A stretch of DNA of 64,000 bases from a bacterium 1XD8-76 (GTDB lineage Bacteria; Bacillota; Clostridia; Lachnospirales; Lachnospiraceae). Under the pieces are notes generated by a model, which saw nothing but the letters and a program-made list of their open reading frames with translations, did no database searches and was not told where the DNA came from. The DNA lies in assembly GCA_003611955.1 (NCBI GenBank), contig RAZE01000003.1, positions 62,001 to 126,000 of the forward strand, written 5' to 3'. Of the stretch, positions 23,593 to 63,681 are shown in pieces (position 1 is the stretch's first letter; each line of letters opens with the position of its first letter). The position numbers were made by a program, and so were the translations under genes.

Positions 23593-23805
23593 ATGTCAGA
23601 GAAAAGACTGAATAATACAATATTTCTTATGTATCTGGTTACGGAAAACTATCGTAAAAGATATGGTCTGTCTATAGAAGAATTTCTAAAACTGGATGAA
23701 GAATATGGTATATTAAATTATGTTGCAGAATGCCCGGATGTATTTGACTGTTTGACGGAAAATGAAATGATAGAGGAGATTGAAGAGTATGTGTCGAAAG
23801 ATTGA
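23593..23805 (+). CDS. DUF3791 family protein, probable antitoxin-like partner
   Basis: This 70-residue protein has the DUF3791 pattern: NNTIFLMYLVTENYRKRYGLSIEEFLKLDEEYGILNYV, then a short acidic end. It precedes and overlaps the DUF3990 gene by 17 bases, the usual order for this pair in Clostridia, so the two are translated together. Such tight small-gene-first pairs are typical of toxin-antitoxin modules, the small protein being the likely antitoxin. Its DNA is clearly richer in AT than the flanking potD and oxidoreductase genes, a sign of acquisition. Pair recognition is from family knowledge; activity is inferred. Confidence 0.82.
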   Translation: MSEKRLNNTIFLMYLVTENYRKRYGLSIEEFLKLDEEYGILNYVAECPDVFDCLTENEMIEEIEEYVSKD

Positions 23806-24340
23806 ACGGATATTATACCATGGAACCGCTTCTCAAATAAGTCAGGTCAATGTGAAACTCGGACGAGGAAGAAAAGATTTTGGAAAAGGTTTTTATATGG
23901 CTGTATCAAAAAGACAGGCTATTGGGATGATGCACAAAAAATATAAAGAGGCGGTAAGAAGGAGCAGGGAAAAACGTGAGGACGCTTTTTGTGAAAAACT
24001 GTATGAGATAGTATTAGATGAAAAAGCGGTATCAGAATTGAATATAAAGGTTTTTGAAAGGGCAGATATAGAATGGCTCGATTTTGTGTTGATGTGCAGA
24101 GAAAGAGGTGGGTTGCCGCACAATTATGACATGGTGATCGGACCGACAGCGGATGATGATACAATGTTTTGCTTAAAGGCATATTGGGATGGACTTTATG
24201 GCAGAACAGGGTCTGATACAGCAAAAAGAATGCTGCTTAATAATCTGGAAACAGAAAATTTGGGAATACAATATTTTATAGGTAAACAGAAAGTGGCAGA
24301 TAATATTATTGTGAGTATCAAAGAGTGTGACTGGAGGTAG
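23789..24340 (+). CDS. DUF3990 protein, ADP-ribosyltransferase-like, probable toxin
   Basis: This 183-residue protein starts at ATG 23789 behind GAGGAGATTGAAGAGT. The sequence ILYHGT (His11) and DFGKGFYMAVSKRQA (Tyr36) match the first two parts of the H-Y-E/Q signature of PARP-like ADP-ribosyltransferases, in which His and Tyr bind NAD. The family DUF3990 belongs to that fold group. A transferase that modifies a cell target would be toxic, which fits the position between two DUF3791 genes. The third catalytic residue is not obvious by eye. Low GC, like its neighbours. The alternative is a housekeeping modifier, but the gene order argues for a toxin-antitoxin module. Confidence 0.78.
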   Translation: MCRKIERILYHGTASQISQVNVKLGRGRKDFGKGFYMAVSKRQAIGMMHKKYKEAVRRSREKREDAFCEKLYEIVLDEKAVSELNIKVFERADIEWLDFVLMCRERGGLPHNYDMVIGPTADDDTMFCLKAYWDGLYGRTGSDTAKRMLLNNLETENLGIQYFIGKQKVADNIIVSIKECDWR

Positions 24341-24344
24341 TTCT

Positions 24345-24599
24345 GTGGAAAAATCTAAAATAGAAACTGTTTTGGGGATGTGTGTTGTTACATTGACGAA
24401 ATATATTATGAAAATACAAAACATTGGGTATGAAGCGGCGTATAAGAGATTGTTGACAACAGAACTATATAAGCTCTTGCAGGACTCGAGGACGCAGTTG
24501 CTTTTAGAGACAAACGAATATCTTTGTGAGGCATGCAGGATAGAATTGATGAAGGGAAAAGAGGAGCTGTATGAATATATAAACAGTGACGACTTCTGA
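24345..24599 (+). CDS. Second DUF3791-like protein downstream of the toxin gene
   Basis: This 84-residue protein begins at GTG 24345, seven bases after GGAGG and four bases after the DUF3990 stop. The pattern LTKYIMKIQNIGYEAAYKRLLTTELYKLLQDSRTQLLLETNEYLCEAC recalls the DUF3791 fold (long helix, then a Leu-rich helix) but is diverged from the first copy. A trio of small gene, toxin, small gene is less usual than a pair; the second copy may be an accessory antitoxin or the remnant of a neighbouring module. AT-rich like the rest of the unit. Confidence 0.65.
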   Translation: MEKSKIETVLGMCVVTLTKYIMKIQNIGYEAAYKRLLTTELYKLLQDSRTQLLLETNEYLCEACRIELMKGKEELYEYINSDDF

Positions 24600-24622: not shown

Positions 24623-24703
24623 GTATCGCAATTTGTCAGTTCGTAACAGTTTAGAAAATCCAATAGTTCCATACTTGACAATATGTTGCGATACTACTAT
24701 AAT
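24623..24703 (+). promoter_or_regulatory. Consensus promoter of the oxidoreductase operon, inside an inverted repeat
   Basis: TTGACA (24675-24680), a 17-base spacer and TATAAT (24698-24703) match consensus exactly. The stretch GTATCGCAA...TTTGTCA near 24623-24638 is mirrored at 24677-24694, with a three-base insertion, so the -35 element and spacer lie in one arm of an inverted repeat. It may be an operator or the terminator-like end of the upstream trio. Confidence 0.78.
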
Positions 24704-24727
24704 AAACAAAGTTGAATAAACCTGAAA

Positions 24728-24971
24728 AAACGATGACGGAGACAGTACATCCAATTGGAAAGTCACAGAGAGCCGCGTATGCTGAGAAGCGGTACGAGTA
24801 GAATGGACCGGAATATCACTCCCGAGTTGCTGCACCAAAGCGTGAGCGAGTAGATGCAGACGGGATCCTCCCGTGACAGAGGACGCATATGTTGGTATGT
24901 CGTAAATGGGACGAGAAGAGGAAGAGAGACTTTAGAAGCCGACTATGCGTATGTGCAGGTCGGCTTTTTTG
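24728..24971 (+). promoter_or_regulatory. T-box riboswitch, probably isoleucine-responsive
   Basis: Signs of a T-box leader occur in the right order: CGATGACGGAGACAGTA at the base of stem I, CAGAGAGCCG and GCTGAGAAGCGG in the upper arms, then GAATATCACTCCCGAG, where the triplet ATC (24815-24817) sits in the specifier position, next AAAGCG and GAGTAGATGCAGACGGG with CCCGTGACAG. The usual TGGTACCGCG core is not intact; AAATGGGACGAG is in its place. A clear terminator follows: AGCCGAC (24937-24943) with GTCGGCT (24959-24965), then six T. ACGCATA near 24881 can pair with TATGCGT in the terminator loop, an alternative fold. ATC points to tRNA-Ile. Confidence 0.78.
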
Positions 24972-25021
24972 TTTCCCGAAAAAATGCGTTGAAAATCATT
25001 GGCAGAAGGAGAATGGATATT

Positions 25022-25633
25022 ATGAAAAACACGGTTGAGATCAGATGGCACGGAAGAGGCGGACAGGGGGCGAAGACGGCTGCTCTGCTGTTGGCGGATG
25101 TTGCGTTTAAGACGGGAAAGTATGTGCAGGGATTCCCGGAGTACGGCCCGGAGCGCATGGGCGCGCCGATCACGGCGTACAACAGGATCAGCAGAGATCC
25201 CATCACGATCCATTCCAATATCTATTCGCCGGACTATGTTGTGGTCGTGGATGACGGCCTGCTGGCGGGCATCAATGTGGCGCAGGGGCTTAAGAAAGAG
25301 GGAGCGGTGATCGTCAACACCGAGCGTAGCAGGGAGGAGATCGCATCGCAGCTTCGCAGGCACGGCTGGAAGGGCAGCGTGTACACGGTGGACGCGCGGA
25401 AGATATCCCTCGAGGCGCTGGGCAGATATTATCCCAATTCACCCATGCTGGCGGCTGCCGTGGCAGTGTCGGGGGTTGTGACGCCCGCTGAATTTTTGAA
25501 GGAGATGGAGGATTCCTTCGCCCACAAGTTTGCGAAAAAGCCGGAGGTGATCGAAGGCAATATGAAGGCGCTTGAGATGACCTTTGAGGCGCTCGCGGAG
25601 GACGGGAAGAGACCCGTCAGAAAGAGCGCATAG
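25022..25633 (+). CDS. 2-oxoacid:ferredoxin oxidoreductase, gamma subunit
   Basis: This 203-residue subunit of a pyruvate- or branched-chain-type 2-oxoacid:ferredoxin oxidoreductase belongs to a complex that interconverts a 2-oxoacid plus CoA with an acyl-CoA, CO2 and reduced ferredoxin. The family mark is EIRWHGRGGQGAKTAA near the start, followed by the GPERMGAPITAYNRIS motif. ATG 25022 is about ten bases after AAGGAG. First gene of the four-gene set gamma, delta, alpha, beta, behind the T-box leader, so synthesis should respond to uncharged tRNA-Ile. This suggests a branched-chain substrate (2-oxoisovalerate or 2-oxo-3-methylvalerate) rather than pyruvate; sequence alone does not decide. 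Confidence 0.9.
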   Translation: MKNTVEIRWHGRGGQGAKTAALLLADVAFKTGKYVQGFPEYGPERMGAPITAYNRISRDPITIHSNIYSPDYVVVVDDGLLAGINVAQGLKKEGAVIVNTERSREEIASQLRRHGWKGSVYTVDARKISLEALGRYYPNSPMLAAAVAVSGVVTPAEFLKEMEDSFAHKFAKKPEVIEGNMKALEMTFEALAEDGKRPVRKSA

Positions 25634-25677
25634 TGAGTGCGCGATGCTCGCTGCACAGGAAAGGAAATGACGATCAG

Positions 25678-25974
25678 ATGAAGAGGAATGATATCAATGA
25701 GAGGAGCCCGTGGCAGGAGATCACGGAGGGAAACCAGATCTATGAGCCTGCCACATCCAGGCGTTTTGAGACGGGCGAGTGGAGGGTATCCACGCCCGTA
25801 TATAAAAAGGATAAGTGCAGGCAGTGCCTGCTGTGCGTGCCGGTCTGCCCGGATTCATCCATTCCGGTCTGCGGGGGAAAACGGCAGGAATTCGATTATG
25901 ATCACTGCAAGGGCTGCGGCATCTGCGCGAAGGTGTGCCCTTTTGGAGCGATCGAGATGAAGGAGGGGAAGTAA
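25678..25974 (+). CDS. 2-oxoacid:ferredoxin oxidoreductase, delta (ferredoxin-like) subunit
   Basis: This 98-residue iron-sulfur subunit has two 4Fe-4S motifs, CRQCLLCVPVCP and CKGCGICAKVCP, which pass electrons from the thiamine site to free ferredoxin. The N-terminus SPWQEITEGNQIYEPATSR is typical for the delta subunits of the archaeal-type four-subunit enzymes. ATG 25678 is preceded by AAAGGAAATG at slightly long spacing; the earlier frame opening at 25633 only reflects overlap with the gamma stop. The stop codon TAA touches the start of the alpha gene. Confidence 0.93.
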   Translation: MKRNDINERSPWQEITEGNQIYEPATSRRFETGEWRVSTPVYKKDKCRQCLLCVPVCPDSSIPVCGGKRQEFDYDHCKGCGICAKVCPFGAIEMKEGK

Positions 25975-27162
25975 ATGGCAATCAGAGAACGTCTATCCGG
26001 CAATGAGGCCGTGGCTTATGCCATCAAACAGATTAATCCCGATGTGATGCCAGCATTCCCCATCACACCCTCGACAGAGATCCCGCAGTATGTAGCGAAT
26101 TACATAGCAAACGGAAAGGTGGACACGGAGTTCATCCATGTGGAGAGCGAGCACAGCGCCATGAGCGCGGCGATCGGCGCTTCGGCGGCGGGGGCGAGGG
26201 CGGTGACGGCCACATCCTCCTGCGGGATGGCTCTGATGTGGGAGGAGCTGTATGTGGCGGCGTCCGACCGTCTTCCGGTCGTGCTGGCACTGGTAAACCG
26301 GGCGCTCAGCGGTCCCATCAATATCAACGCGGACCATTCGGACAGCATGGGAGCGCGGGACACAGGCTGGATCCAGATCTACGCAGAGTCCAATCAGGAG
26401 GTGTACGACAACTTCCTGCAGGCGTACCCCATCGCGGAGCACGAGGCGGTGCATCTGCCTGTGATGATCTGCCAGGACGGCTTTATCACAAGCCACGGTG
26501 TGGAGAATATCCTGCTGGTGGAGGATGAGAAGGTGAAGGAGTTCGTGGGTGAATATTGCCCCGCGCACTATCTTTTGAATGAGAAGGAGCCGATGGCAGT
26601 GGGGCCTTACGCAGTTTCCAGCTACTATATGGAGACCAAGAGAGGACAGCGGGAGGCGATGAAAAATGCCAGACAGGTGATCCTGGATACGGCGAAGCGG
26701 TTTGAGGAGATGACCGGGAGAAAGTACGGCTTTTTCGAGGAGTACCGTATGGAGGATGCGGAGTATGTGATCGTCCTCATCGGATCCGCGGCGGGCACCT
26801 GCAAGGCGGCGGTGGATCGCGTCAGGGAGCGGGACGGCAAAAAGGTCGGACTTTTGAAGATCAGAGTATTCCGCCCGTTCCCGGAGGAGGAGCTGGCGCA
26901 GGTGCTGCGGGACAGGAAAGCGGTGGCGGTGTTAGACCGCTCCGAGATGTTTTCCGCCACGGGCGGTCCCCTGGGGACGGAGGTGCGCTCAGCGCTCTAC
27001 GGCGCGAAGCCTCAGGCGGAGGTCGTGAATTATTTCTACGGCCTGGGCGGCAGGGACATCACCGTGGAAGACTTTGAAGAGGTTTACATAAAGCTGGAGA
27101 AGCTGGCAGGAACCCATATGACCGAAGATATGTACACCTATATCGGACTGCGGGAGAGATAA
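25975..27162 (+). CDS. 2-oxoacid:ferredoxin oxidoreductase, alpha subunit
   Basis: This 395-residue catalytic subunit carries the pyrimidine-binding side of the thiamine diphosphate site. Family motifs: LSGNEAVAYAIKQINPDV, AFPITPSTEI, FIHVESEHSAMSAAIGASAAGARAVTATSS and LALVNRALSGPINI. The C-terminal domain (about 250-395) includes VGLLKIRVFRPFPEEEL and AVLDRSEMFSATGGPL. The ATG follows the delta stop codon without a gap, behind GGAGGGGAAG, so the two are coupled. Length is normal. Substrate choice between pyruvate and branched 2-oxoacids cannot be fixed here, but the isoleucine-type leader favours the latter. Confidence 0.93.
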   Translation: MAIRERLSGNEAVAYAIKQINPDVMPAFPITPSTEIPQYVANYIANGKVDTEFIHVESEHSAMSAAIGASAAGARAVTATSSCGMALMWEELYVAASDRLPVVLALVNRALSGPININADHSDSMGARDTGWIQIYAESNQEVYDNFLQAYPIAEHEAVHLPVMICQDGFITSHGVENILLVEDEKVKEFVGEYCPAHYLLNEKEPMAVGPYAVSSYYMETKRGQREAMKNARQVILDTAKRFEEMTGRKYGFFEEYRMEDAEYVIVLIGSAAGTCKAAVDRVRERDGKKVGLLKIRVFRPFPEEELAQVLRDRKAVAVLDRSEMFSATGGPLGTEVRSALYGAKPQAEVVNYFYGLGGRDITVEDFEEVYIKLEKLAGTHMTEDMYTYIGLRER

Positions 27163-27221
27163 TGCCCCCTGACTAAACGGTTAAGCCCGCCGGACAGTTT
27201 GATGAAATGAGAGGAAATGAG

Positions 27222-28160
27222 ATGGAGACAGCATACAATTATAAAGAAGTGATGAGCAGGCCGGAGCGCCTTTCACCCGGGCACAGAATGTGCGCGGGCT
27301 GCGGCGGGACCGTGGCGGTCCGGGCGGTGCTGCGGGCGCTGCGCCCGGAGGACAGGGCGGTGATCGGCAACGCTACGGGGTGTCTGGAGGTATCGACGTT
27401 TATGTACCCCTACACCGCCTATGAAGACAGCTATATCCACAACGCCTTCGAGAACGCAGGGGCGACCATGTCCGGCGTGGAGACGGCTTACCGGGTGCTC
27501 AAAAAGAAGGGAAAGATCGGCGAGAACTATAAATTTATCACTTTCGGCGGCGACGGCGGAACCTACGATATCGGCTTTCAGTCCCTCTCCGGCGCGATGG
27601 AGAGAGGACACGACATGGTTTATGTCTGTTACGACAACGGCGCCTACATGAACACAGGCACCCAGCGTTCCTCGGCGACTCCTCAGTTTGCGGACACGAC
27701 CACCACGCCCGCGGGGACGGTGTCCGACGGCAAGGTGCAGATCAGAAAGGATCTGACGGCGATCATGGCGGAGCATCATATCCCCTATGCGGCACAGACC
27801 ATATTTACGTCGAATTTTAAGGATCTGCACACGAAGGCGGAAAAGGCCATCTACACGAAAGGAGCGGCATTTTTGAACGTGATGTCCCCCTGCCCGAGAG
27901 GATGGGGATATGAGCCCTCCGAGCTGATGGATATCTGCCGTCTGGCGGTGGAGAGCTGCTACTGGCCATTGTATGAGGTGGTGGAAGGAAAGTGGATCCT
28001 GAGCTATGAACCGAAAAACAAGCTGCCCGTGGAGGACTTTTTCCGCACGCAGAAACGCTTTAAACATCTTTTTACGCCGGAGGGCGGAGAACTGATCGCG
28101 TTTTGTCAGGCGGAAGTGGACAGGAGATGGGAAGAATTGAAAAGGAAGTGTGAGGCGTGA
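27222..28160 (+). CDS. 2-oxoacid:ferredoxin oxidoreductase, beta subunit
   Basis: This 312-residue subunit binds the diphosphate of thiamine diphosphate through GDGGTYDIG and, 30 residues on, NGAYMNTGTQRS. The N-terminal CAGCGG and the later Cys in MSPCPRGW are the usual cluster ligands. I prefer ATG 27222 (METAYNYKEV) behind AGAGG; ATG 27207 lacks a site. It completes the gamma-delta-alpha-beta set; a strong terminator follows. In the direction of carboxylation the complex would make 2-oxoacids for valine and isoleucine from branched acyl-CoA, in the other direction it degrades them; both are known in anaerobes. Confidence 0.92.
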   Translation: METAYNYKEVMSRPERLSPGHRMCAGCGGTVAVRAVLRALRPEDRAVIGNATGCLEVSTFMYPYTAYEDSYIHNAFENAGATMSGVETAYRVLKKKGKIGENYKFITFGGDGGTYDIGFQSLSGAMERGHDMVYVCYDNGAYMNTGTQRSSATPQFADTTTTPAGTVSDGKVQIRKDLTAIMAEHHIPYAAQTIFTSNFKDLHTKAEKAIYTKGAAFLNVMSPCPRGWGYEPSELMDICRLAVESCYWPLYEVVEGKWILSYEPKNKLPVEDFFRTQKRFKHLFTPEGGELIAFCQAEVDRRWEELKRKCEA

Positions 28161-28183
28161 GTCGGCTCACTGTGTTTATTTTG

Positions 28184-28228
28184 TATCCGGTTGTCGTTCT
28201 GACAGCCGGATATTTGCATTTTTTTTCG
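28184..28228 (+). terminator. Terminator of the oxidoreductase operon
   Basis: TATCCGG at 28184 pairs with CCGGATA (28206-28212) and the inner TGTC with GACA. TTTGCATTTTTTTTC follows. Confidence 0.88.
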
Positions 28229-28296: not shown

Positions 28297-28857
28297 ATGA
28301 AGGACAGCGACATCATTCAGCTATACTGGGACAGAAACGACCGGGCGATCAGCGAGACATCTGATAAATACGGCCGCTACTGCAAGGCGATTGCGAAGAA
28401 TATACTGGAGAATGAGCAGGATGCGGAGGAATGCGTCAACGATACATACCTGAGCGCGTGGAATGCGATGCCGACGCACTGGCCGGAACAGCTGGCGGCA
28501 TTTCTCGGAAAGCTCACGCGCAATCTGTCCTTTAACAGGTATAAGTATTATCACGCCGGAAAGCGTGGACGCGGCGAATTTGCGCTTGTTCTGGACGAGT
28601 TGGCGGACTGTGTGTCAGGCAGGGACAATGTGGAGCAGGAGATCGACCGCCTGCAACTGATAGAAGCTGTCAATTCCTTTGTGGCGGACCTTCCCGAGAT
28701 AAAGCGGAAAATATTTGTCTGTCGCTACTGGTACGCAGATCCGGTCTCGGAGATCGCCGGAGTTTACGGGATGGGCGCCGGGAATGTGTCAAAGATGTTG
28801 GAGAGGGTGCGGAAGCAGTTGAGGAACTATCTGACGGAAAGGGGGTTTGAGGTGTGA
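28297..28857 (+). CDS. ECF-type RNA polymerase sigma factor
   Basis: This 186-residue sigma-70 family factor has only regions 2 and 4. Region 2 includes AKNILENEQDAEECVNDTYLSAWNAM, and region 4 includes LPEIKRKIFVCRYWYADPVSEIAGVYGMGAGNVSKMLERVRKQL, the helix-turn-helix that reads the -35 element. It would direct RNA polymerase to a small regulon, probably including its own promoter. GAGGAGGTG precedes ATG 28297. The last codons overlap the start of the next gene by four bases (GTGA), typical for a sigma factor and its inhibitor. The inducing signal is unknown. Confidence 0.93.
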   Translation: MKDSDIIQLYWDRNDRAISETSDKYGRYCKAIAKNILENEQDAEECVNDTYLSAWNAMPTHWPEQLAAFLGKLTRNLSFNRYKYYHAGKRGRGEFALVLDELADCVSGRDNVEQEIDRLQLIEAVNSFVADLPEIKRKIFVCRYWYADPVSEIAGVYGMGAGNVSKMLERVRKQLRNYLTERGFEV

Positions 28858-29444
28858 GAAAGGAGGATCTGTTTGAAATTCTCGGGGAGCTGGATGACCG
28901 TATCGTGGAGGAAGCCGGAAGACCTGTGCGAAAGAGAATAAACTGGAAAGCTCTGGGGACCATGGCGGCCTGCCTCACCCTGATGTGCATCGCCTTCGGA
29001 TCGTTCTCGTTCACGGACCGTTTCGGCAGCCGCTCGGAGGAAGCGCCCATGGAGGAGTCGCCTATGGAAGAAGCGAGTGCGGAGGAAGCGCCCATGGAGG
29101 AGTCGCCTATGGAAGAAGCGAGTGCGGAGGAAGCGCCTGCGGAGGAGCCGTCTGAGGAGGCGGCATCCGCCGGTGACATCGCGCCGATGGCGTATGTGAA
29201 CGGCACGCTCTATATTCAGTCTTCGGCTCAGGAAGGCTATGCGGAACGGCGGGAGGAGTTCAGTTACCTGGGCAGGATCGAGAGCGCAGTAACTCAGGAC
29301 AGGGAACCGGATCAGAATTTTCAGGCGAATGATCCGATCATCGGCTGTGAGGTGTATCAGTACGGTGAAGATATTGTCATAGAGATAGGCGGCAGGTACT
29401 GGCGCTATGTGAAAAAGGATGGAGAAGGAGAAAACGATGAATAA
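28854..29444 (+). CDS. Putative membrane anti-sigma factor with acidic repeats
   Basis: This 196-residue protein starts at GTG 28854, overlapping the sigma stop codon. The N-terminal 45 residues (RKEDLFEILGELDDRIVEEAGRP) would bind the sigma factor inside the cell, and a hydrophobic segment MAACLTLMCIAFGSF spans the membrane. The outside part has a low-complexity region of Glu, Ala, Pro, Met and Ser: a perfectly duplicated 45-base unit (29037-29081 and 29082-29126) plus a partial third. A small folded end (PMAYVNGTLYIQSS ... IVIEIGGRYWRYV) follows. The family is not one I can name; the role is inferred from position and topology. Confidence 0.7.
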   Translation: MRKEDLFEILGELDDRIVEEAGRPVRKRINWKALGTMAACLTLMCIAFGSFSFTDRFGSRSEEAPMEESPMEEASAEEAPMEESPMEEASAEEAPAEEPSEEAASAGDIAPMAYVNGTLYIQSSAQEGYAERREEFSYLGRIESAVTQDREPDQNFQANDPIIGCEVYQYGEDIVIEIGGRYWRYVKKDGEGENDE

Positions 29445-29834: not shown

Positions 29835-30443
29835 ATGGAGATGTTTGATGTTATAACGATCGACAGACACAGATTTCACACGGACGGAAAAGGGGTGACC
29901 ACGCTGGTGATACTGAGCGGCTGCCCCTTGAGGTGCAGATACTGCATCAACGGGAGATTGCTGTCAGGTGCAAAGACGAGAAAAATGACAGTGGAGGAAT
30001 TGTTGCAACGGATCATGCAGGATTACTGCTATTTTATGGCGACGGGCGGAGGCGTCACGTTCGGCGGCGGGGAACCTCTGTTGTATTATGAGGCGATCGC
30101 GGCGTTTATCCGCCAGGTGAACGGCATGTTTGCGACGACGATAGAGACTTCGCTCGCCGTGGAGGCGGACATTGTTGAGCTGCTGAAGGCGGCGGACCAG
30201 TTTATCATAGACGTCAAAAGCACGGACGGCTCGATATACCGTGAATATACCGGGACGGGCAACGAGATACTGCTGTCGAATCTGGAGAAGATAAGCAGGG
30301 CCGGCCTGCAGGGCAAATGTGTCATAAGGATCCCCGATATCAAAGATTTTACGACGGGGAAGGATATAGAGCGTTCCGTCAATTATGTGAGAGATCTGGG
30401 ATTCGGGAATATTGACTGCTTTATCTACAAAGTCGAGGACTGA
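29835..30443 (+). CDS. Radical SAM protein, activating-enzyme-like
   Basis: This 202-residue radical SAM enzyme binds a 4Fe-4S cluster with CPLRCRYC (C-x3-C-x2-C) and S-adenosylmethionine with GGGVTFGGGEP, patterns close to those of pyruvate formate-lyase activating enzymes. The second ferredoxin-like cluster domain found in larger activases is absent. The product lies 11 bases after the Cys-motif gene, behind GGGGAAGCG. No glycyl radical enzyme gene is nearby in the window, so its target may be the small upstream protein or an enzyme elsewhere. The operon with an ECF sigma factor suggests induction by an envelope or metal signal. Class is certain, target unknown. Confidence 0.88.
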   Translation: MEMFDVITIDRHRFHTDGKGVTTLVILSGCPLRCRYCINGRLLSGAKTRKMTVEELLQRIMQDYCYFMATGGGVTFGGGEPLLYYEAIAAFIRQVNGMFATTIETSLAVEADIVELLKAADQFIIDVKSTDGSIYREYTGTGNEILLSNLEKISRAGLQGKCVIRIPDIKDFTTGKDIERSVNYVRDLGFGNIDCFIYKVED

Positions 30444-63313: not shown

Positions 63314-63667
63314 ATAAGCAGACCAGATGGCCGCGCCTGCTCGTGCAGGTGAGGAAAGTCCGGGCTTCACAGGGCAGGATGCCGGATAACGTCCGGTGGA
63401 GGTGACTCCAAGGCCAGTGCAACAGAAACAAACCGCCAGCCGGATTCCGGCTGGTAAGGGTGGAAAGGCAGTGTAAGAGACTACCGTCCGTCTGGCAACA
63501 GGCGGGGCTATGTAAACCCCATCCGAAGCAAGACCAAGCAGAGAACGATAAACCGGCCCGGTTTGTTCTCAGGTGGGTCGCTGGAGACTGTTGGCGACAG
63601 CAGTCCAAGATAGATGGCCATCGCCCTGCATCGCAGGGAACAGAACCCGGCTTACCGGTCTGCTTAT
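63314..63667 (+). ncRNA. rnpB: RNase P RNA (bacterial)
   Basis: This 354-base catalytic RNA matures tRNA 5' ends. Universally conserved elements are GAGGAAAGTCCGGGCTTCACAGGGCA near the 5' end, GTAAACCCC in the middle and CAGAACCCGGCTTAC near the 3' end. The ends pair (ATAAGCAGACC, 63314-63324, with GGTCTGCTTAT, 63657-63667), giving P1. It contains no real coding frame. Confidence 0.96.
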
Positions 63668-63681
63668 AAGTTGTGAGAAGA

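Follow-up and report, generated by a model that had tools for sequence, protein, structure and literature searches.

The porCDAB locus and its leader RNA

The stretch analysed here, 64,000 nt from the bacterium 1XD8-76 (Lachnospiraceae) and hereafter called the window, contains the genes porCDAB for a four-subunit 2-oxoacid:ferredoxin oxidoreductase. Directly upstream of them lies a leader RNA which is a class I T-box with an isoleucine specifier. Coordinates are positions in the window; L and G numbers denote fetched loci and genomes, respectively. The features of the locus are the following.

24675-24703, + strand: sigma-70 type promoter, TTGACA-17-TATAAT (12 of 12 matches)
24724-24970, + strand: T-box leader RNA predicted to control porCDAB (RF00230 at 24724-24890; our own covariance model R1 at 24724-24910)
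24730-24827, + strand: stem I with AGAGAG distal element and specifier loop, limits approximate (Rfam alignment; conserved in 43 leaders)
24815-24817, + strand: specifier AUC, isoleucine (Rfam alignment; 45 of 45 leaders)
24881-24885, + strand: RRRxG motif GGACG, 5' of stem III (in 42 of 45 leaders)
24884-24949, + strand: putative antiterminator of the window clade, CGCATA (24884-24889) with TATGCG (24944-24949) and GTCG (24899-24902) with CGAC (24940-24943) (kept pairs)
24886-24899, + strand: stem III hairpin CATA-TGTTGG-TATG (UGNUGG loop in 45 of 45 por-type leaders)
24893-24896, + strand: UGGU, proposed relocated tRNA acceptor-binding site (conservation of the stem III loop)
24936-24970, + strand: intrinsic terminator, AAGCCGAC-loop-GTCGGCTT followed by a T run (sequence)
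25013-25633, + strand: porC, gamma subunit, start at 25013 or 25022 (TIGR02175, 208.8 bits, over cut-off)
25633-25974, + strand: porD, delta subunit with two 4Fe-4S stretches (TIGR02179, 98.6 bits, over cut-off; PF00037 twice)
25975-27162, + strand: porA, alpha subunit (NF040682, 506.3 bits, below the cut-off of 550; PF01855, PF17147)
27207-28160, + strand: porB, beta subunit, TPP binding (NF008819, 338 bits, below the cut-off of 405; PF02775)
28183-28213, + strand: terminator after porB, closing the operon (14-pair stem)

The Rfam T-box model RF00230 aligned over its full length to the leader with 63.3 bits (E 1.5e-13 for the 461 bases searched and E 3.1e-13 in the search of the whole genome), recovering the stem I elements that an initial annotation of this DNA had noticed upstream of the genes and giving AUC as the specifier, in agreement with the ATC triplet of that annotation. 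Stem I, the specifier loop and the conserved distal elements of a T-box were all found in the window leader by this alignment and in the 43 leaders aligned, and the RRRxG motif was read as defined, preceding stem III, in the available text of PMC7583486. Terminator and antiterminator pairings exclude each other, both in the shared columns of the alignment and in the pairings of the window clade. The terminator had been missed by the terminator scan because its 15-base loop exceeds the loop length of the scan; its predicted energy without tRNA is -11.0 kcal/mol vs. -6.18 kcal/mol for the antiterminator pairs alone.

Conservation of the leader

The relatives compared were the 80 best of 574 PorA relatives. 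R1 was built from the window and 34 of 42 leaders found among them; it gives 202 bits for the window leader, which is one of its building sequences, and, the window apart, it detects 42 complete copies and one that is cut among the 80 relatives. Matches to 34 of the 42 were expected since the same sequences had built the model, but these had first been recognised by motif and not by R1. At eight of the 80 loci the sequence upstream of por is truncated. Together with L108 and L111, the 43 leaders make a set of 45, in all of which the AUC specifier is unchanged (44 read by pattern, L108 by eye), with A, C, G or T as the preceding base. The L111 leader scores 62.9 bits with RF00230, and at this locus a Clostridiales-1 RNA (L111:1740-1909; RF01699, 89.8 bits) follows the T-box terminator and precedes porC.

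Fifty-one genomes, that of the window and those of 50 of the 80 loci (30 with and 20 without a leader), were also searched, most of them draft or metagenome assemblies. In each of the 31 genomes counted as having the leader R1 reached 184-219 bits, and it never exceeded 117 bits in the 20 counted as leaderless; the genome of the window was counted with a second, unlisted R1 match. In 250 genomes of the family, the top R1 matches were five por-type leaders (188-207 bits), the window's own included and two apparently from genomes already in the set, and the next best match reached 139 bits. One of the five, in G211, precedes another gene: this por-type isoleucine leader stands before an ORF read as nucleoside-phosphorylase-like (L253:1355-2331; no NCBIfam match at E 1e-20), and no por subunit was found by tblastn in the 9 kb of this locus. 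Among the matches listed, 85 further leaders were read (L112-L136, L142-L201), of which 84 precede ileS, as assigned by a short protein motif, and L142 precedes por. Other T-boxes are matched weakly, the trpB leader of the same genome with 32.8 bits.

A T-box on ileS, called the archetypal T-box gene in the part of PMC2494555 consulted, is common in the other genomes of the set, with 18 of 20 fetched second R1 matches being ileS. The ileS gene in the genome of the window (C7:51429-53966, L202) has a short leader in which no T-box was found, either by reading or by the whole-genome RF00230 search, and por thus carries the only isoleucine T-box found in this genome.

L142, from another genus of the Lachnospiraceae, was fetched as an ordinary R1 match and was found upstream of porC, followed by porD, porA and porB. 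The por subunits of L142/L254 are 61-66% identical to those of the window, in unchanged order. Its leader has the AUC specifier, scores 93.6 bits in Rfam, above the cut-off of 93, and contains a canonical discriminator, GGGTGGTATAGCG...CGTCCC, with the A1/A2 bulge. Since this leader is canonical, the link between the isoleucine T-box and por is independent of the variant form described below, although it is a single case. With the leader and its AUC specifier conserved and L142 a canonical T-box above the cut-off, control of the oxidoreductase by isoleucine tRNA is well supported: isoleucine T-box control of porCDAB is highly probable, and induction of por on isoleucine shortage is expected with good support from these comparisons.

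A UGG sequence in the stem III loop

The por leader shares with the class I isoleucine T-boxes (RF00230) found on ileS, its nearest R1 matches outside the por type, the succession of stem I, AUC, stem II, stem III with RRRxG and terminator. It differs from them in standing before an oxidoreductase, in having lost the UGGN bulge and A2 and in keeping a UGG in the stem III loop. In canonical ileS leaders stem III is typically followed by GUAAnAGG-UGGUnnn-ACG...CGU-CCUnUUAC, that is A1, bulge and A2, whereas the por-type stretch after stem II typically reads GGACG-CATA-UGNUGG-UAUG-UCGUARAUGG. UGNUGG was found in the stem III loop of all 45 por-type leaders (42 by pattern, three read directly), its third base being free (T, C, A or G). 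The same loop is present in five of five non-canonical ileS leaders, all of whose genes score best as ileS.

The UGGN bulge beside A1 and A2 was not found in the por-type leaders in alignments of 43 of them. Matches to the UGGN pattern occur in five of the 45, in stem II (L024), in the stem III loop (L059, L060 and L067) and, in L026, as TGGAACC at the end of CGTAAATGG, which in our reading may be chance or a relic. The por-type leaders contrast with the statement of a review, in its available part, that all known T-boxes have UGGN next to A1. AUGG within CGUARAUGG was also considered as acceptor site and rejected, as it is replaced by AUGA in L024 and L027, where the terminator has changed to compensate, and UGG is missing from this place in the five non-canonical ileS leaders.

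An equivalent of A1 is kept in the por leaders with the first type of terminator (T1), where CGUARAUGG can pair with CCGUUURCG in the terminator loop and upper stem. Pairs were counted in 35 of the 39 T1-type leaders, L078-L081 being left out for an insertion in the terminator loop. All nine positions of this antiterminator helix pair in the 35 leaders, with one pair changed on both sides, and the share of paired cells and the covariation score were each reached by one of 500 shuffles. In the terminator helix 100% of the cells are paired and four pairs are changed on both sides, which nine of 500 shuffles reached.

The window, L005, L006 and L007 are without the CCGUUURCG terminator and use a different one, the loop and arm of which can pair with GUYG and with the 5' strand of stem III. 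Their antiterminator leaves a bulge with UUGGUA between its two helices, and the pairs CGCAUA:UAUGYG and GUYG:CGAC are kept in all of them, with G-U changes, so this clade may have a nearly classical T-box layout with a new acceptor site. A motif resembling the window-clade element was found behind T1 in eight of 26 leaders vs. 2.2 expected. This is suggestive only, but T1 may be followed by a second terminator-like element in some relatives, a further difference from the ileS T-boxes.

The oxidoreductase and its gene context

The products of porCDAB carry the POR, 4Fe-4S, POR_N plus PFOR_II and TPP domains of a four-subunit 2-oxoacid:ferredoxin oxidoreductase, and the profile and domain matches bore out the gene order gamma-delta-alpha-beta given in the initial annotation. 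Subunits and domains match those of the four-subunit pyruvate synthase/POR (NF040682, NF008819, TIGR02175, TIGR02179), from which the window enzyme differs in its T-box control and in that alpha (506.3/550) and beta (338/405) remain under the pyruvate synthase equivalog cut-offs, although these are still the best-scoring models. Alpha scores 506 and 414 bits with pyruvate-type models vs. 349 bits with the ketoisovalerate type, and beta 338 vs. 271 bits; the latter scores fall short of the VOR cut-offs (alpha 349/646, NF006232; beta 271/405, NF008818). PorA, of 395 aa, gives 141 bits with VorB (NF005507, cut-off 399), and it matches the pyruvate:ferredoxin oxidoreductase of PDB 9bt4 with E 1.8e-91.

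Two described enzymes are of interest for comparison. The porA of Parabacteroides/Bacteroides, which according to the available part of PMC11984666 turns branched-chain amino acids into branched acids, shares with the window PorA the superfamily and the gut-anaerobe setting, but works in the catabolic direction and has about 360 aa in the alignment of that paper; we infer that it is of the VorB type. The 2-oxobutyrate:ferredoxin oxidoreductase activity, by carboxylation of propionyl-CoA, is like the proposed role of the window enzyme in being a named source of isoleucine precursor (PMC7476758, in part), and no T-box link was found for it in the literature searched. No report was found either of a T-box without the A1/A2 bulge or of a T-box on a ferredoxin oxidoreductase in literature that included the available parts of PMC2494555, PMC9045289, PMC3766115, PMC2700814, PMC7583486 and PMC7778990; the main T-box surveys (PMC2271356, PMC2650889) lay outside the search, and an earlier mention of either is possible.

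The first plus-strand ORF of at least 100 aa within 2.5 kb behind porB was compared in 36 T-box and 24 leaderless loci. No conserved operon partner was found, the first gene behind porB being common to at most three of the 36 T-box loci; in the largest groups, of three members each, one scored as a hybrid histidine kinase and one as citrate synthase. Fifteen leaderless loci share one neighbour, a member of which scores as ClpB. The genes behind porB thus give no metabolic hint.

Other features of the window

Upstream of the leader lie three small adjoining genes, the middle one with DUF3990 (23593-24599). Downstream of the operon follow a gene for an ECF-like sigma factor and one for a protein with Glu/Ala/Pro-rich repeats, which could, as a guess, be its anti-sigma partner (28297-29444), and a short radical SAM protein related to the activases of glycyl-radical enzymes (29835-30443; TIGR02494, below cut-off). 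A class A RNase P RNA is located at 63315-63670 (328.6 bits).

Proposed mechanism and its assessment

We propose that, when isoleucine is short, the anticodon of uncharged tRNA-Ile would pair with AUC in stem I and the ACCA end of the tRNA, whose discriminator position is presumably A, would pair with UGGU in the stem III loop. Alternatively, in the window clade, stem III may open, so that UGGU would contact the tRNA in the bulge between CGCAUA:UAUGCG and GUCG:CGAC. This contact would hold the antiterminator and block the terminator at 24936-24970, and por would therefore be made under isoleucine shortage. The enzyme would then run reductively, yielding 2-oxobutyrate from propionyl-CoA and/or pyruvate from acetyl-CoA, which would feed acetohydroxyacid synthase as unbranched isoleucine precursors. 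Supply of 2-oxobutyrate or pyruvate is preferred because control by isoleucine shortage points to a role in biosynthesis, and relatedness to the pyruvate type to substrates without a branch. Moreover, one of the routes named for making the 2-oxobutyrate of isoleucine anaerobically is the reductive carboxylation of propionyl-CoA (PMC7476758, as far as available).

A number of observations count against this proposal. Regarding the leader, it is not reported at the Rfam gathering thresholds (63.3 bits vs. a cut-off of 93), so the check with the T-box covariance model that accompanied the initial annotation succeeded in the full-length alignment and the AUC specifier but fell short in the score. 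Nevertheless, this cut-off is not discriminating in the genome of the window because even the canonical pheS leader scores under it: the four T-boxes found there are all below 93 bits, and the three others precede pheS (91.9 bits), trpB and thrS (a cut piece, below its cut-off), all with the canonical T-box motif. The free fold of the window leader is also no clear improvement over shuffled sequences (z -1.32). In addition, 29 of the 80 relatives have por without a leader in the R1 search, despite sufficient upstream sequence; 24 of these 29 leaderless rows fall into one clade of the PorA tree (support 98/92), which fits a loss of the leader.

Regarding the acceptor site, 54 of the canonical ileS leaders have a hairpin of such size, and 16 of these 54 show UGNUGG as well. 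(From the 110 leaders considered, 41 ileS leaders, L142 and L250 have no such hairpin and were set aside; L151 and L184, both with the canonical motif, were dropped as the pattern had matched in coding sequence, and so was L246, which belongs to a different tRNA synthetase and has a canonical-like GGTGG.) The UGNUGG counts are, besides, not independent trials because the leaders are related by descent. The both-side changes in the T1 antiterminator helix were reached by 83 of 500 shuffles and are not above chance, and the proposed acceptor loop lies outside A1, yet would have to stabilise the T1 helix.

Regarding the role of the enzyme, 2-oxobutyrate from propionyl-CoA is not needed, given that ilvA was found in 49 of the 51 genomes. 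Pyruvate formate-lyase (PFL) can also turn propionyl-CoA into 2-oxobutyrate in some organisms, according to the part of PMC7476758 at hand, and PFL-like genes are present in the genome of the window. The POR, as the sole pyruvate-type oxidoreductase found there, could simply be catabolic.

On balance, we consider the relocation of the tRNA acceptor-binding site to the stem III loop somewhat more likely than not. Odds are about even that the por leaders represent a Lachnospiraceae T-box subclass in which UGG moved from the A1/A2 bulge to the stem III loop, 5' of A1, and which arose on ileS-like isoleucine leaders and became fixed on a pyruvate-type oxidoreductase. That the enzyme supplies unbranched isoleucine precursors is put forward tentatively and with low confidence. 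To the reading as a whole, isoleucine T-box antitermination of porCDAB with a relocated acceptor site and supply of unbranched precursors, we assign a probability of roughly 60%.

Alternative explanations

The alternative that survives best, although we regard it as rather unlikely, is that the POR is an ordinary fermentative pyruvate:ferredoxin oxidoreductase working alongside PFL, and that the T-box does no more than adjust it to the supply of amino acids, either on account of the competition of acetohydroxyacid synthase for pyruvate or with low isoleucine as the signal for a change of fermentation. Five PFL-like matches in the genome of the window, the fifth weak, are consistent with such a role. 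So is the distribution of NifJ, which was not found in this genome (98% complete), leaving the POR as its only pyruvate-type oxidoreductase found, and which scored over cut-off in only eight of the 51 genomes (8/31 with the T-box on por and 0/20 without it); its absence across the 51 is uncertain because draft or metagenome assemblies predominate among them. Besides PorA, the proteins with a POR_N domain in the genome of the window are an indolepyruvate enzyme (TIGR03336, over cut-off) and, with a weak match, an acetolactate synthase. An extra POR-like protein of about 750-815 aa was seen in G009, G010, G014, G016-G020, G023 and others, with and without the por T-box, and not in the genome of the window. 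Against a fermentative role, T-boxes elsewhere control amino acid synthesis, uptake and charging, as the available part of PMC3766115 has it, and an enzyme consuming pyruvate, which isoleucine synthesis itself requires, would be raised by starvation.

Less probable still, and in our view unlikely, is the version of the initial annotation, in which the same T-box controls an enzyme that carboxylates 2-methylbutyryl-CoA and isobutyryl-CoA to branched 2-oxoacids, as a salvage route from 2-methylbutyrate or isobutyrate to isoleucine and valine. The isoleucine specificity of the T-box, the part of that interpretation which stands by comparison, would suit it, and rumen methanogens do use branched acids to make isoleucine and leucine (PMC10658910, in part). 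The branched chemistry, however, found no support: alpha and beta score as pyruvate type over ketoisovalerate type, no downstream partner is common to more than three of the 36 T-box loci, and a route to valine is unexpected under an isoleucine-only specifier. Moreover, the genome of the window encodes ilvA, ilvC, ilvB, ilvD and leuA, with ilvD adjoining ilvB (TIGR00118, over cut-off), and ilvC was found in 47 of the 51 genomes; since this canonical route is available, branched acids or propionate are not required as isoleucine sources. A link between the T-box and the lack of ilvA or ilvC was also looked for, and none was clear (ilvA missing in 2/31 genomes with the leader vs. 0/20 without, ilvC in 3/31 vs. 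1/20).

Finally, a decayed T-box that retains stem I and specifier but has lost the acceptor contact, leaving por constitutively attenuated or otherwise regulated, would explain the missing canonical bulge and A2 but is very improbable. Across 43 leaders GCATATGNTGGTATG behind stem II hardly varies, in 35 no position of the terminator and antiterminator helices is left unpaired, and the window clade, although its terminator has changed, still has pairings that exclude each other.

Implications

The T-box discriminator is held to be fixed, and if UGGN has been relocated in nature, this would reveal to what extent the sensor of tRNA charging can be rebuilt. Leaders with the relocated UGG score low in scans tuned to the canonical T-box form. 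If the proposed subclass is true, it makes a CO2-fixing synthesis of 2-oxoacids directly responsive to the charging of isoleucine tRNA. A ferredoxin-dependent carboxylating enzyme would thus be tied to isoleucine supply in gut Lachnospiraceae, and the use of propionate or branched acids for isoleucine by these bacteria becomes testable.

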